The translations under genes were made by a program, and so were the position numbers. From Pelolinea sp. (GTDB lineage: Bacteria > Chloroflexota > Anaerolineae > Anaerolineales > Anaerolineaceae), in the NCBI GenBank assembly GCA_030692365.1, contig JAUYCC010000053.1, positions 1 to 64,000 on the forward strand: a DNA stretch of 64,000 nt, written 5' to 3'. The notes beneath the pieces are model-generated. The model was not told the DNA's origin. It did not search any database and saw nothing but the letters and a program-made list of their open reading frames with translations. Each line of letters opens with the position of its first letter. Positions within the stretch are counted from its first letter, which is position 1. This document shows, piece by piece, positions 5,236 through 10,652 of this stretch.

Positions 5236-5982
5236 TCACTCCGGAACTCTGCCAAACGCGTAAAAAATCGGCACAAATAACACCCGCCTGCCTTGCCGTG
5301 ATGCTTCGAGATCAATTTTGTAATACCTTTCCAACTCTTCGGATGACATTTTCCCCTCAAGGTCCTTTCTGAGCACGGACCACTCCAGATCGAATTCAGC
5401 CTGATCAAAATCCCGATGCCATTCCGCGGAAATAATACCGGATTGAATATTTTGTAATCCGCAATCCGTAAAAAGTCCTTTTAGTTTACACCCGGTGAAA
5501 ACGTCTGCACCCTGATCTTGCAAAGATTGCGATTGAGCCTTACCCAGTTGTATTAATTCCTCGGGAAAATCAATCCTGCCCCCGTAATCCGGCTCTGCCA
5601 GGGCGATGACCCATCCGCCGGGTCTGGTAACCCGCGCCATTTCTTTTAAAACTTTCAGCGGGTCTGCGACCCAGAGCAAAAGAAAATGGCACAGGCTGAT
5701 ATCAAAACTATTCCGGGCAAAAGGTACCTTTAACGCGTCTGCGTTGGTAACAATCTCAGATATAGCCAATCGCAGAGCAGCGTAATCAATATCCAACCCG
5801 ATTGCGTTGGAAAAGCCGTCTTTGATAAGCGATTCAAGGACCGCGCCGCTTCCGCAGCCAACTTCCAGTATTCGCTGAGAAGGGCGGACGCCTATCTTGT
5901 CGAAGATGTATCTGCGAGCAGCAAGGGTCCAGCGGACCTGCTGGGTATAACGTTGATGCCAGAATTCAGGATTGGCTGACAA
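5236..5982 (-). CDS. Class I SAM-dependent methyltransferase of the radical SAM operon
   Basis: The 248-aa protein has a Rossmann methyltransferase core: motif I ILEVGCGSGAVLE near residue 40, acidic motif II GLDIDYAALRLA, and LCHFLLLWVADPLKVLKEMARVTRPGG typical of ubiE/Methyltransf_11 proteins. The start appears to be TTG at 5982, 6 nt after the stop of the upstream gene, with no clear ribosome site, so it is probably read by coupling. As the last gene of the operon it may methylate the product of the radical SAM pathway; that substrate is inferred from context only. Confidence 0.85.
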   Translation of the reverse strand: MSANPEFWHQRYTQQVRWTLAARRYIFDKIGVRPSQRILEVGCGSGAVLESLIKDGFSNAIGLDIDYAALRLAISEIVTNADALKVPFARNSFDISLCHFLLLWVADPLKVLKEMARVTRPGGWVIALAEPDYGGRIDFPEELIQLGKAQSQSLQDQGADVFTGCKLKGLFTDCGLQNIQSGIISAEWHRDFDQAEFDLEWSVLRKDLEGKMSSEELERYYKIDLEASRQGRRVLFVPIFYAFGRVPE

Positions 5983-5988
5983 AACGGA

Positions 5989-7149
5989 TCAGCGCCGCTT
6001 CCAGATCTTTTGCCAGGGGTCTTTCAGGATGTTGCCCAAGACCCGGTTGACACCCTGCGCGGGCAGCACATCGCCGTCCGGTTCAACATAAAGCCAGGTT
6101 TTACCAGCGCCTTCAGGCATGTGGTTGCCCGCTTTACTCTGTTCAAACGCTACCGGGTGGCTGGCGGAATAGGGCACGGGCAGGTCCCACACCAGGCGCA
6201 TTCCCAATGCGGCGGTTTTATGGCTGGCCTCTTCGAGCTGTTTTGAAAGCGATTCATTTTCAGCGCTGAGAGAAAGGCTGGTGACATTTTCTTTGGATAA
6301 TTTTTCGAGGAAAGCATTGAATCCTGCCTGGTTGGTTATGGTTAAGGTGGCGTGAACTGTAACCGCAATATCCGCGGGCATCAGCAGCTTCAGCGCTTTC
6401 CAGAAATCTTTGCTGGCTTCATCCGCCAGGAGCATAATGTGGTCAAGCCCGCTTACCAAAAGCGTATCCAGGTATTTTTTATCGGTCAGTTTCAAACCAT
6501 CAGTCAGAAGGCCGCTCACAATTCCAATTTGCTCTGTTTTACTGATCAATTCTGGCAAGTCATCGCGCAGGGTGGGTTCGCCACCGGTAAATACTACATG
6601 CGGCACCCCCGCGTTCCAGATATTTTCCAAAACCGTCTCCCATTCCTGGGTAGTCAGTTCCCTGTTGACACGCTCGTTAGGGGCAACCGCAGATTCGGTC
6701 CCCGGGGAAACCTTATAGGTCAGCGCGCAGTCAATCCGTAAAGGGGCTGATAGCTTTTTGGAATGCGGCGTAACGCGATCCATATCCAGGTAGGTGACAG
6801 GGTCCAAATCTTCTGAACCAATCAATAAAGTGACTTTTTCAATGAACTCATCCAGATCTTTTTCAGCCTGATTTTTTTCAACGTCATACCGTTCAGCAAC
6901 CAGTTGGACGATTTCCGCTTTCTTTTTCCCTTGGGCCAGATAATAGGCATACTCAGCCGCGGTATGGTTGAGGTGCAGGACAGTGCTGGCGTTAATGACC
7001 AACAGACCTGTGCCATCGGCTTCAACCCGTAAATGCCATTTATATGGCAGCGGAGCGTCAGCGGGTGCCTGGTACTGGTAAATTCCCGCCGGAACTGGGC
7101 GGACTTTCATGAAAAGATTATCAAAAACCTGTTCAATTTTATTAAACAT
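5989..7149 (-). CDS. Radical SAM homologue with PqqD-like domain, cluster cysteines lost
   Basis: Residues about 15-110 form a PqqD-like (peptide-binding) domain. The rest aligns with the neighbouring enzyme at 7167-8543, for example VPHVVFTGGEPTLRDDLPEL. Where the neighbour has CNNRCIHC, this protein reads KVSPGTESAV, so the CxxxCxxC site for the [4Fe-4S] cluster is gone. It ends at DPWQKIWKRR without the SPASM cysteines. The frame is open and preceded by AGGAGG, so it is probably expressed. It is likely a non-catalytic partner or substrate carrier. The second of two adjacent ATGs is preferred for spacing. Confidence 0.85.
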   Translation of the reverse strand: MFNKIEQVFDNLFMKVRPVPAGIYQYQAPADAPLPYKWHLRVEADGTGLLVINASTVLHLNHTAAEYAYYLAQGKKKAEIVQLVAERYDVEKNQAEKDLDEFIEKVTLLIGSEDLDPVTYLDMDRVTPHSKKLSAPLRIDCALTYKVSPGTESAVAPNERVNRELTTQEWETVLENIWNAGVPHVVFTGGEPTLRDDLPELISKTEQIGIVSGLLTDGLKLTDKKYLDTLLVSGLDHIMLLADEASKDFWKALKLLMPADIAVTVHATLTITNQAGFNAFLEKLSKENVTSLSLSAENESLSKQLEEASHKTAALGMRLVWDLPVPYSASHPVAFEQSKAGNHMPEGAGKTWLYVEPDGDVLPAQGVNRVLGNILKDPWQKIWKRR

Positions 7150-7166
7150 CATTCCTCCTGGTCAAA

Positions 7167-8543
7167 TTAAAAAGGCAAAGCATTGATCGGTTGAGGCTGC
7201 ACCTCGGGATTGTTTTTGATGTATAACGGACAGCCTCCACCGCAGGTATCCAGTACATCACAATATCTGCATCCTTCTGGAACTGCTTTTCTTTCGCGCA
7301 AGGAAACAGCAAGATCGTGTTCCCAAATCTTTTCCCACGGATCAGTAAGGATGTTTCCCAGCGGCTGGTAATAAGATTGGCAGGGCAGCACGCTGCCGTC
7401 CGGTTCAACGCACATGTTATACAGCGCAGCGGTGCAGCCCTTGACGCCCAAACCGCTTTCAATAGGATTGAAATGGCAATATAGCGTGGGTGTATACCAG
7501 ATAAGCCGCTGGTCTGTTCTGGCAACGTGGTCCTTCGCGATTTCCAACAAACCTGTCAGGTCGGCTTCGGAAATTTCCTGATTTACCGACTCACCGCGTC
7601 CTGAATAAATCAGACCGTTCAATCCTACGGTGGGGACGCCTAACCCAGAGAGAAATTTCAATGTGTCAGCAAGGTATTGGCTGTTTGATTTCAGCAGGGT
7701 TGTATTGGTCATGACAAATAATTTTGAATTGAGCGCATTTTTGATACCCTTAACGGTTTGCACCCAGGCGCCGCTGCTGGCTACTATCGATTCATGGATA
7801 GATGGATTGTGAGACTCAAGCGTAATCTGAACATGATCCAGGCCTGCATCAACCAACTTTTGCAGATAATCAGTTTGGCTCAATCGCCGGCCGTTGGTGT
7901 TCAAACCTGTGATCAGACCTAAGTTCTCGGCATAGGCAATTAATTCCGGCAGGTTATCTTTCAAGGTTGGTTCACCGCCGGTAAACACCACATGCGGAAT
8001 GCCCAATTCCCAAATTCGGCTTAGTACCTTTTTCCAATCATCAGTGCTCAATTCGTTTTGTGCCCGGGATGCTTCGTTATAGCAGTGGATACAGCGATTG
8101 TTGCAGCGGTAAGTGAGCGCGAGGTCCATACGGTAAGGCGCGGACGGTTGGCGGGAGAAAGGCGTGATTGTTTCTATATCCAGGTCGCAGATTGGGCAAG
8201 GATCATCAGTTGGAGAAATAATACGATCGAAAGAGGTTTTAAATTTTTGGTAGTCCTCCGTAGCTTGATCCCGTTTCACGTCAAAAGATTTACGAAGATG
8301 CTTAATGATTTCATTTTCCGGCTTTTCATCCAGCAGCATGCGCGCCATGAGGGTGGCGGAAGGGTTGAAGTGAACCATCCGGCTGGCGTTGATAATCAGA
8401 ACGCCGCTGCCGTCCTTATCAATCCTGAGGTGAATGCGCTTCTTGTTTTCGCCTGATTCACGGACAAAATGATAAATTCCTGAATCCAGCGGCTGATAAA
8501 CACCGCTGGGTTTTTGTTTTGGCAAAGAAAATATGCCTTGCAT
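7167..8543 (-). CDS. PqqD-like/radical SAM/SPASM peptide-modifying enzyme
   Basis: The N-terminal ~110 residues form a PqqD-like domain (DGSGVLIINASRMVHFNPSA), followed by CPICD. The radical SAM barrel has LALTYRCNNRCIHCYNEA, the cluster-binding CxxxCxxC, and the GGEPT motif. The C-terminus has SPASM-type cysteines (GCTAALYNMC, PCQSYY, CRYCDVLDTCGGGCPLY) for auxiliary Fe-S clusters. Such enzymes modify ribosomally made peptides; PqqE is the model. I place the start at the ATG at 8543, 12 nt after the preceding gene's stop. An upstream start at 8615 would overlap the Cys-Ala tail codons. The likely substrate is the tail encoded just upstream. Confidence 0.9.
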   Translation of the reverse strand: MQGIFSLPKQKPSGVYQPLDSGIYHFVRESGENKKRIHLRIDKDGSGVLIINASRMVHFNPSATLMARMLLDEKPENEIIKHLRKSFDVKRDQATEDYQKFKTSFDRIISPTDDPCPICDLDIETITPFSRQPSAPYRMDLALTYRCNNRCIHCYNEASRAQNELSTDDWKKVLSRIWELGIPHVVFTGGEPTLKDNLPELIAYAENLGLITGLNTNGRRLSQTDYLQKLVDAGLDHVQITLESHNPSIHESIVASSGAWVQTVKGIKNALNSKLFVMTNTTLLKSNSQYLADTLKFLSGLGVPTVGLNGLIYSGRGESVNQEISEADLTGLLEIAKDHVARTDQRLIWYTPTLYCHFNPIESGLGVKGCTAALYNMCVEPDGSVLPCQSYYQPLGNILTDPWEKIWEHDLAVSLRERKAVPEGCRYCDVLDTCGGGCPLYIKNNPEVQPQPINALPF

Positions 8544-8554
8544 TTTATTGGAAA

Positions 8555-10273
8555 TTACCGACCGCCACCCGCGCAGGCACATGCACAGCCGGCGCACGCG
8601 CACGCGCACGCACACCCACCGGATATACCGCCGCCGCTTCTGCCGCTGCCGCGGAAAGTGCTTGATGTGGGCTGCGGGATCGGGTTGGTCTTGCTGGTCA
8701 CACCGCTGGTAAACGAGGTCAAATTACCAACCGCGCCTGTGGAAAACGCCGTGACTGTGTTGACCACAGAAGCCGCTGCGTCAGAGCCAGGTAGCCTGGG
8801 AAGTGTTATCGTTTGAGACTTACCGCCAGATGGCATGGTTGGCATTGAACCGCCAGTAACCGATCCGCCAATCGTGCGGCCGGATGTTCCCCGAATGGTC
8901 GGGTCAGCACGGTACCACCAGAATGGCATGAAGACAGGTCCGGATCCGAAGGTTCTGCGGGTGCGTTGGTCATAATCTTTGTCAAGCATGGTCCAATCCA
9001 CGGCTTCTGAGTACTTTTCAGCTTTAACCTCAGGCGTTTGAGCTTCTTCAACCTGCGACCAGGCTTTGTTAATAATCTCTTCGTAATAAGTCACAGTCTC
9101 TTTGCGGGAAAAACCTTTCATCTTTTCGCCGACTGTCTTAACCAAAGCGACCATCATATCCTGCAGGATGGTCCGCCGCTCAACTGGTTTTTCAGTTTTA
9201 AATGCGTTCAGGAAAGCGGTTTCATATTCGCGCAAGTCTTCGGGTAATTTCGCTTCTACTGTGATAGCCAAAGGTTCGCGAGTAGTTACAGTAGCGCAGC
9301 CCTTTCTTAGAACGCTAAAAAGGATCATGGTCAGAATCTTGTCCATTGGCTGTTCCATCAAAATGGCTGCTTCGACAGCGGTCAAGCCGCGTTTAATGCC
9401 GTGGCCTTCAATGGCTATCTTGGGAGGCAGGTATTTTAGTTTTCGTTTCTTGGCGCTTCTAATGGACAAATAAATTACCAAAACAAAGAGTCCCAGGAAA
9501 CCGCCGCAACATACGATGGGAATGATAGTCCCCATCAGGGCAGAAGGGTTATATGTTACAGTTTGTTCTGTCCGGATGGCATCAGTGGGTATCAAGCGCG
9601 CAGGAAAAGCCGCGCCGAACGTATACACACCATCTGGTTGGGCGGTGGTTGTTGACCATTGATAAACGATCCTGTTTTCCTGGTCAAATCCTGATGCAGG
9701 TGTCTCATCACCCGGCCAGCCTTTGGGTGTATACCAGATAATTTCGCCGTCTTTAGCGCCGGGTGGAAGATGGAGTGTTACGGTCAGTTTTGTGCTGCCG
9801 CTGGTAAAACCGGACTCGAAATAATTGGGTTGGAACTGGACGGACGCGTAATCTTCACCCTTGTCTGAGGAAGCAGAATAGAAAATGTCCCTTACATTTT
9901 TGGCATACATATAAACTATGCCAGTTGCGCCTGGCTGGATGGCATTGCTGTCCAACCCAAGGGCAACGCCATCGACGTATTGAGAACTGCTGATATCTGT
10001 GACCGGAATATTGTTGATTGTGGCTGTGATATCGCTCAGGTTGTAAGAGCTTGCCCCGGGCATGCCAACATCTACAAAGTCAATAGCATGCGCTCCGGGT
10101 GCGTTGCTGAAGAGGTACTGGTATTCAATCGCAGCCGTGCCGTCCGATTCAAGGTAAACATTGACTTCAACCTCAGGAACCTCAAAAGAATAATCCTGGG
10201 CGAATACCGGAAGGATTGCAGTAAAAGATAACGTTAAGGCAAAAAATATGGAAAAAACAAATCTCTTAATCAT
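8555..10273 (-). CDS. DUF2207-like membrane protein with a Cys-Ala repeat tail
   Basis: A signal peptide (residues about 3-27, ending near VFAQ) is followed by a beta-rich outer domain of ~200 residues of DUF2207 type, then a membrane segment (IPIVCCGGFLGLFVLVIYLSI). Next comes a ~200-residue cytoplasmic region and a Gly/Ser/Thr-rich linker. The protein ends in CACACACAGCACACAGGGR, seven cysteines alternating with alanine. GTG at 10279 or ATG at 10273 may be the start. A tail this regular is probably modified or binds metal, and the radical SAM gene starts 12 nt further on. I recall similar tails in DUF2207-type proteins but cannot check this here. Confidence 0.82.
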   Translation of the reverse strand: MIKRFVFSIFFALTLSFTAILPVFAQDYSFEVPEVEVNVYLESDGTAAIEYQYLFSNAPGAHAIDFVDVGMPGASSYNLSDITATINNIPVTDISSSQYVDGVALGLDSNAIQPGATGIVYMYAKNVRDIFYSASSDKGEDYASVQFQPNYFESGFTSGSTKLTVTLHLPPGAKDGEIIWYTPKGWPGDETPASGFDQENRIVYQWSTTTAQPDGVYTFGAAFPARLIPTDAIRTEQTVTYNPSALMGTIIPIVCCGGFLGLFVLVIYLSIRSAKKRKLKYLPPKIAIEGHGIKRGLTAVEAAILMEQPMDKILTMILFSVLRKGCATVTTREPLAITVEAKLPEDLREYETAFLNAFKTEKPVERRTILQDMMVALVKTVGEKMKGFSRKETVTYYEEIINKAWSQVEEAQTPEVKAEKYSEAVDWTMLDKDYDQRTRRTFGSGPVFMPFWWYRADPTIRGTSGRTIGGSVTGGSMPTMPSGGKSQTITLPRLPGSDAAASVVNTVTAFSTGAVGNLTSFTSGVTSKTNPIPQPTSSTFRGSGRSGGGISGGCACACACAGCACACAGGGR

Positions 10274-10286
10274 AGCCACTCGCAGA

Positions 10287-10652
10287 TTACCACTTGGGTG
10301 CTTCGGTCAGTTGGTAAGTCGTACCGCAGAACGGGCAGGTGACCACTGGAGCGCCGGCCACAAGCTTGACATCTTTTTCCGAGAGTGTGCCGCCGCAGGA
10401 CGTGCATTTGATTGTATCCATGCCGACTTCTCCGGGAAGGTCAATATTCACAGTGACGTTTTGGGCGGCATCGCTCGCCGCGCCCATCCGAGTGGCGAAG
10501 AAAATAAGGATGAAACCCACCGCGGCCAGGCCGACCGCGAACCAGATATAACCGGCGCTGCCGGTTTGTCCTCCCGCGCCCAAAAAGAAAAGGAAGGAAA
10601 AAATCAGGGAAAAAGCAGCAAGTATAAACAGGATAATTTTGCCAGATTTCAT
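10287..10652 (-). CDS. Two-TM protein with a C-terminal zinc ribbon
   Basis: Two membrane segments (residues about 5-25 and 33-53) precede a linker and a zinc ribbon with CTSCGG and CPFCGT. It is the first gene of the minus-strand operon that continues with the Cys-Ala-tailed protein (7-nt gap to that frame's GTG). GGAG lies before the ATG. It may be an accessory membrane partner of the tailed protein. No enzymatic motif is seen. Confidence 0.75.
   Translation of the reverse strand: MKSGKIILFILAAFSLIFSFLFFLGAGGQTGSAGYIWFAVGLAAVGFILIFFATRMGAASDAAQNVTVNIDLPGEVGMDTIKCTSCGGTLSEKDVKLVAGAPVVTCPFCGTTYQLTEAPKW

Follow-up and report, generated by a model that had tools for sequence, protein, structure and literature searches.

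Radical SAM enzymes that modify peptides typically have a PqqD domain and SPASM cysteines, and work on them has usually concerned the small precursors of antibiotics or cofactors. In the biosynthesis of PQQ and of mycofactocin, a small peptide-derived product is released by cleavage. For TvgB, modification of TVGG repeats is experimental, and systems in which Asp-Cys repeats are modified have been predicted (PMC9062424). Membrane proteins of the TIGR04222 family with Cys-rich carboxy-terminal tails have already been proposed as substrates of MNIO enzymes; these tails are diverse and are thought to be periplasmic (PMC12452194).

Here we describe a gene cluster from Pelolinea sp. (Chloroflexota, Anaerolineae), located in the window, a stretch of 64,000 nucleotides of contig JAUYCC010000053.1. 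A large membrane protein, which we call the carrier, ends in a tail that is the candidate substrate and that is fixed across many families of one phylum. A search of the literature, mostly of papers available without subscription, returned no description of this tail family, of a second one presented below, or of the pairing of either with a radical SAM enzyme; all of these appear to be undescribed in the literature searched.

Structure of the carrier protein

An initial annotation had noted a protein ending in seven alternating Cys-Ala units beside a PqqD-radical SAM-SPASM gene. Both features hold: the minus-strand open reading frame 10279-8555 was confirmed in the sequence and ends in GGCACACACAGCACACAGGGR, or, in longer or alternative excerpts of the same 574-residue frame, in SGGGISGGCACACACAGCACACAGGGR and FRGSGRSGGGISGGCACACACAGCACACAGGGR, directly followed by the stop codon (8557-8555). 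The reading frame of the enzyme starts with the ATG at 8543, 11 nucleotides past this stop codon and not 12 as previously given. The features of the cluster are listed in Table 1.

Table 1. Positions of the carrier, its segments and the neighbouring genes in the window
Feature	Position	Strand	Description or evidence
Carrier protein, 574 aa	8555..10279	(-)	signal peptide, ectodomain, one TM helix, cytoplasmic domain, C-terminal module, Cys tail
Cys-Ala tail CACACACAGCACACAGGGR = (CA)4-G-(CA)3-GGGR, 19 residues, 7 Cys	8558..8614	(-)	sequence; proposed modification site (core)
Gly/Ser-rich linker preceding the tail, sequence unconserved	8615..8671	(-)	commonest-residue frequency 0.43; low pLDDT
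Two predicted helices and T-N-P motif beside the tail, aa 496-536	8672..8794	(-)	conservation 0.70; helices 498-517 and 520-531 (model)
Single transmembrane segment, aa 250-271, then RSAKKRKLK	9467..9532	(-)	hydropathy peak; predicted helix 245-280; positive-inside rule
PqqD-radical SAM-SPASM enzyme, 458 aa	7167..8543	(-)	Pfam matches above cut-offs
Pseudo-radical SAM protein: PqqD and radical SAM-like core	5989..7152	(-)	domain search; conserved in 23 homologues
Class I SAM methyltransferase (Methyltransf_11)	5236..5982	(-)	frequent last gene of cluster
Small membrane protein, C-terminal zinc-ribbon-like CxxC...CxxC	10287..10652	(-)	directly upstream of carrier

The carrier contains a beta-sandwich ectodomain (approximately residues 28-245) and a cytoplasmic domain (approximately residues 280-457), separated by the transmembrane segment. 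Its AlphaFold2 model, with a mean pLDDT of 83, consists of an amino-terminal helix, a beta-rich ectodomain, a long helix (residues 245-280), an alpha/beta domain, helices at residues 498-531 and a disordered tail; the Cys-Ala array itself is predicted to be disordered, with a pLDDT of about 35. The sequence RSAKKRKLK, which follows the only hydrophobic segment after the signal peptide, suggests that the carboxy-terminal half and the tail are in the cytoplasm. Outside the tail, cysteines are limited to residues 257, 258 and 328. The segment of residues 496-536 is a candidate recognition (leader-like) segment and part of the carboxy-terminal module. A fold search with the model yielded weak, partial matches, mostly to the ectodomain (M1 aminopeptidases and oligosaccharyltransferase subunits), with a query TM-score of at most 0.26, and a search of a viral library gave nothing useful.

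The enzyme and the other genes of the cluster

The enzyme matches the PqqD, Radical_SAM and SPASM families above the Pfam cut-offs (PqqD with 28.3 bits, for a cut-off of 23.4). Ten cysteines, C148, C152, C155, C357, C371, C389, C426, C429, C435 and C439 (numbered from a start one codon upstream, which gives 459 residues), are invariant in 35 sequences from both tail classes. The first three form the CxxxCxxC motif, and both this motif and the SPASM cysteines are invariant, the CHSAC-type enzymes introduced below included. The protein thus has the CxxxCxxC core, the SPASM domain and the PqqD/RRE domain of RiPP-type radical SAM/SPASM maturases. Its closest solved relatives are PqqE and SkfB, which do not settle its chemistry.

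The next protein, the pseudo-radical SAM protein, has a PqqD domain (36.1 bits) and keeps the GGE motif, the CxxxCxxC motif is absent and the SPASM cysteine is lost (LPAQG for LPCQS). It is a probable non-catalytic partner, most simply one for recognition or scaffolding. No Pfam family matched the zinc-ribbon membrane protein with a score that passed the cut-off. An MNIO (DUF692) is absent from the five cluster proteins that were scanned, and with it the MNIO gene next to the precursor that marks MNIO-modified, bufferin-like systems.

This arrangement was compared across 80 fetched loci, 77 of which extend 700 bp or more downstream. The radical SAM gene is the next one downstream, on the same strand, in 76 of the 77, one of them (L064) interrupted by a run of N, in agreement with the constant neighbourhood that the initial annotation had asked about. 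Three cultured strains also carry the system, namely Ornatilinea apprima P3M-1, Bellilinea caldifistulae GOMI-1 and Levilinea saccharolytica KIBI-1. In most loci the zinc-ribbon gene lies upstream of the carrier and, where there is enough sequence, the pseudo-radical SAM gene lies downstream of the enzyme; in about half, the methyltransferase gene is also next in the series. Two other families of the class (f52 and f23) have the order zinc ribbon, radical SAM, pseudo-radical SAM, one or two carriers, methyltransferase.

Conservation of the tail

Homologous tails were taken from the genome contigs and from genomes of the class. The 104 that end in CACACAGCACACAGGGR are encoded by 102 distinct DNA sequences, in which the synonymous positions of the Cys, Ala, Gly and Arg codons are all variable. 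In 60 aligned carriers of about 50% identity, the mean frequency of the commonest residue is 1.00 in the tail and between 0.35 and 0.73 elsewhere (ectodomain 0.58, transmembrane helix 0.39, Gly/Ser linker 0.43 and cytoplasmic domain 0.73). The tail variants differ only in the number of CA units, being (CA)5-G-(CA)3, (CA)3-G-(CA)4, (CA)3-G-(CA)3, (CA)2-G-(CA)3 and (CA)2-G-(CA)4, apart from one in which the G is changed to S; all of them keep GGGR. The tally of variants counts the same gene repeatedly where loci overlap, and the lone CAGCACACAGGGR in it is a locus that starts inside the tail. With codons that vary freely, a near-invariant protein sequence and variants that retain GGGR, what is maintained in the tail is its amino-acid sequence.

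Co-occurrence of tail and enzyme

A degenerate pattern of the tail was found in 39 of 298 genomes of the class, with 44 matches, while the reversed control gave a single match; all 44 are on the carrier family, except for one fusion. Orthologues of the enzyme, taken as matches of 359 bits or more, are present in 43 of these genomes, covering all 39 that bear the tail (both, 39; tail only, 0; enzyme only, 4; neither, 255). The four with the enzyme only (G005, G006, G128 and G157) are all incomplete assemblies in which the tail was not detected. In the sample of the phylum, the enzyme accompanies the tail in 26 of 26 genomes. The initial annotation had named as a refutation of its proposal a large number of genomes in which the tail occurs and a radical SAM gene is wholly absent; put to the test, this refutation failed in both samples.

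In several genomes (G048, G012, G173, G100 and G659), the enzyme is present without being linked to the carrier. Loci without an adjoining enzyme were considered as counterexamples and rejected, because L064 is cut by N, and in G048, G012, G173, G100 and the genome of L062 the enzyme is encoded at another place. Conversely, tail and enzyme are both absent from G111, G179 and G595 (genus g6) and from G130 and G223 (genus g8), congeners of which have both; several of these genomes are of high quality. In G192 (genus g9; L180), the pseudo-radical SAM gene survives alone, without enzyme or tail gene. Fisher's test gives P values of 1e-44 and 2e-39 for the co-occurrence, which were computed ignoring shared ancestry, are inflated for that reason and should not be taken literally; the within-genus absences and the unlinked cases are the stronger evidence.

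Some related reading frames were observed in addition. The genome of L062 contains a radical SAM orthologue that has its own Cys/Gly-rich extension (GGGGCSGCSGSCGTGG; L179:7855-9648), after which lies a 334-codon reading frame that resembles the carrier, without a Cys tail. In G263, a second carrier-like ectodomain is located on a 900-codon reading frame (L181:6445-9144), also without a Cys tail.

The carboxy-terminal module on a kinase protein

The one fusion is encoded on contig C353 of G048 (L175:978-4406). It is a Ser/Thr kinase-ATPase-TPR protein, 1143 codons in length, which ends in the carboxy-terminal module of the carrier, comprising the helical segment, a TNPPP motif, a Gly linker and the identical tail CACACACAGCACACAGGGR; the remainder of the carrier is missing from it. 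The reading frame of the enzyme begins 424 bp after the fusion gene. The module is portable, in this one case. The fusion is known from a single metagenome-assembled genome (88% complete, 8% contamination) and on that account needs confirmation.

A second tail family

Homologues of the carrier with a different conserved Cys array, of the CHSAC type, were found at 11 loci of the class (L183-L192 and L196) and at two more from wider sampling (L229 and L231). Their tails are the same or close variants, and a radical SAM gene is located directly downstream of the carrier gene. At L229 and L231, the next downstream reading frame is about 420-430 residues long. A profile-profile comparison relates the CHSAC-type and window carrier families with 99.7% probability (E 1.5e-26), in an alignment that covers the window family from column 2 to column 414 and leaves the tail outside.

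In a tree of the enzymes, those associated with CHSAC and those associated with CACACA tails are separated with full branch support (100/100). Three rows for which no tail was observed are placed within the CHSAC clade, and that of the L062 genome, where the tail gene is elsewhere, within the CACACA clade. Between the two families, then, the scaffold is retained and the Cys array is exchanged along with the enzyme. They provide two clean pairs of putative substrate and enzyme, one with a (CA)n and one with a CHSAC tail, and the chemistry of both is open to direct testing.

L193, L194 and L195 contain radical SAM genes of the CHSAC clade, and the contig stretch shows no tail gene. The reading frames downstream measure about 400-440 codons and 180-210 codons, and those of the shorter class end in a zinc-ribbon-like CxxC pattern.

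Proposed function of the tail

The cluster is likely to encode a RiPP-like system that is anchored in the membrane, with the Cys tail of the carrier as the target of the enzyme. The proposal that the tail of a membrane protein is the substrate, already made in the initial annotation, gains support from the co-occurrence of tail and enzyme even where the genes are unlinked, from the module on an unrelated protein near an enzyme gene and from the second tail with its own enzyme clade; both the modification and its chemistry are inferred. Cys tails of membrane proteins have a precedent as proposed substrates in the TIGR04222 proteins with MNIO enzymes (PMC12452194).

According to the proposed mechanism, the cytosolic enzyme would modify the Cys-Ala array in place, on its flexible Gly/Ser linker, with its PqqD domain binding the conserved helical segment that immediately precedes the tail, and with the assistance of the catalytically dead PqqD/pseudo-radical SAM partner. 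It would work on the array repeatedly, for which the action of TvgB on repeats is a precedent (PMC9062424), and would introduce Cys-based crosslinks, of which thioethers would be the likeliest by analogy with SkfB (PMC6231123) and QhpD (PMC7876137). If the tail is indeed the substrate, the chances that the chemistry is of the thioether type seem about even. A further step may be supplied by the methyltransferase.

That the core is near-invariant across families and species speaks for a housekeeping role and against an antimicrobial product; the tail is more likely to serve as a resident redox, metal or signalling element than as a diversifying antibiotic. Together with the presence of the tail on a signalling protein in one genome, the fixed sequence suggests housekeeping RiPP chemistry in the cell envelope. 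We propose, tentatively, that Anaerolineae and their relatives possess an unreleased RiPP, in which the radical SAM enzyme turns a Cys-Ala peptide into a protein-bound redox, metal or crosslinked cofactor on a portable module, and that a sister cofactor is made from Cys-His-Ser-Ala repeats.

Other explanations start from the same genes. The target of the enzyme might be a different partner, for example the zinc-ribbon membrane protein. More specifically, the tail might stay an unmodified polythiol of a membrane sensor, binding metal in a metallothionein-like way or buffering redox state, with the enzyme, in the same pathway, modifying some other molecule. Seven regularly spaced thiols in a probably cytoplasmic tail would suit such a role, as would the zinc-ribbon membrane protein encoded next door. 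On the other hand, the near-invariance of the exact spacing and of the terminal GGGR exceeds what metal binding needs, the module has moved onto an unrelated protein near an enzyme gene, and there are two Cys arrays, each paired with an enzyme clade of its own, so that we regard an unmodified polythiol as unlikely.

Enzymatic modification of the tail, our preferred reading, might also be followed by cleavage, yielding a small peptide-derived cofactor or signal for which the carrier is just a large leader. An invariant core combined with a PqqD-radical SAM enzyme does recall the PQQ and mycofactocin pathways, but no peptidase is present among the five cluster genes examined and the other domains of the carrier are well conserved (the cytoplasmic one in particular, at 0.73), which would be needless in a mere leader; release of the tail is accordingly rated as quite improbable. 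That the tail is a functionless low-complexity repeat, arisen by slippage as a DNA microsatellite or by chance beside an unrelated enzyme gene, can be dismissed: by eye it does resemble (TGCGCN)n, but the protein is fixed over 102 distinct DNA sequences out of 104, with synonymous codons varying at every position, and the enzyme is both a constant neighbour and a genome-wide partner.

Comparison with known systems

Assignment of the window proteins to DUF2207, TIGR04222 or TIGR04463 was rejected, as they fall below all cut-offs. A Pfam search of the carrier gave no match, DUF2207 (PF09972) included, and just 2 of 60 of its homologues touched that family, with a best E value of 0.097; a distant CHSAC-type homologue passes the cut-off, with 28.7 against 24.4 bits. 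Of the description "DUF2207-like" in the initial annotation, what stands is thus a remote relationship, by way of this homologue and the profile comparison described above, while the carrier itself lacks the match. Nor does the carrier match TIGR04222 (near_uncomplex), for which a CHSAC-type homologue reaches 39 bits (E 6.6e-10), just under the cut-off of 43. By sequence comparison, the carrier would be a remote relative of DUF2207/TIGR04222 through its CHSAC-type homologues. DUF2207 proteins share with it an amino-terminal ectodomain and a cytoplasmic domain remotely related through these homologues; the carrier differs in having a single predicted transmembrane segment after the signal peptide, and its Cys-Ala module is an addition.

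The TIGR04222 systems also combine a large membrane protein, a disordered carboxy-terminal tail rich in Ser, Gly and Cys and an adjoining peptide-modifying enzyme. There, however, the enzyme is an MNIO and the tails are diverse and predicted to be periplasmic, whereas here a PqqD-radical SAM-SPASM enzyme is paired with an invariant Cys-Ala array that is predicted to be cytoplasmic. Among DUF2207/TIGR04222-like proteins, some of the Cys-rich tails not yet explained may be accounted for by this system. TIGR04463 (rSAM_vs_C_rich, NCBIfam) resembles the enzyme in being a radical SAM/SPASM family whose name implies pairing with Cys-rich proteins, and the enzyme scores 22.3 bits against its cut-off of 525. 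Sactipeptides and ranthipeptides are marked by Cys thioethers to an alpha, beta or gamma carbon and derive from a short free precursor; the precursor here would be a membrane protein of 574 residues.

QhpD and QhpC of quinohemoprotein amine dehydrogenase come close to the proposed system, with a cytoplasmic radical SAM enzyme that forms several thioethers within a protein, a substrate that bears a leader and a modified part that is likewise kept (PMC7876137). QhpC differs in being an enzyme subunit destined for the periplasm, with links from Cys to Asp or Glu (PMC7876137), whereas the carrier is a membrane protein, in the tail of which the putative acceptors would be Ala, Gly or Cys. TvgB, finally, resembles the proposed enzyme as a radical SAM enzyme iterating on a repetitive core (PMC9062424), and it and the Asp-Cys systems differ in having short precursor peptides with other repeats, where the repeat described here ends a large membrane protein.
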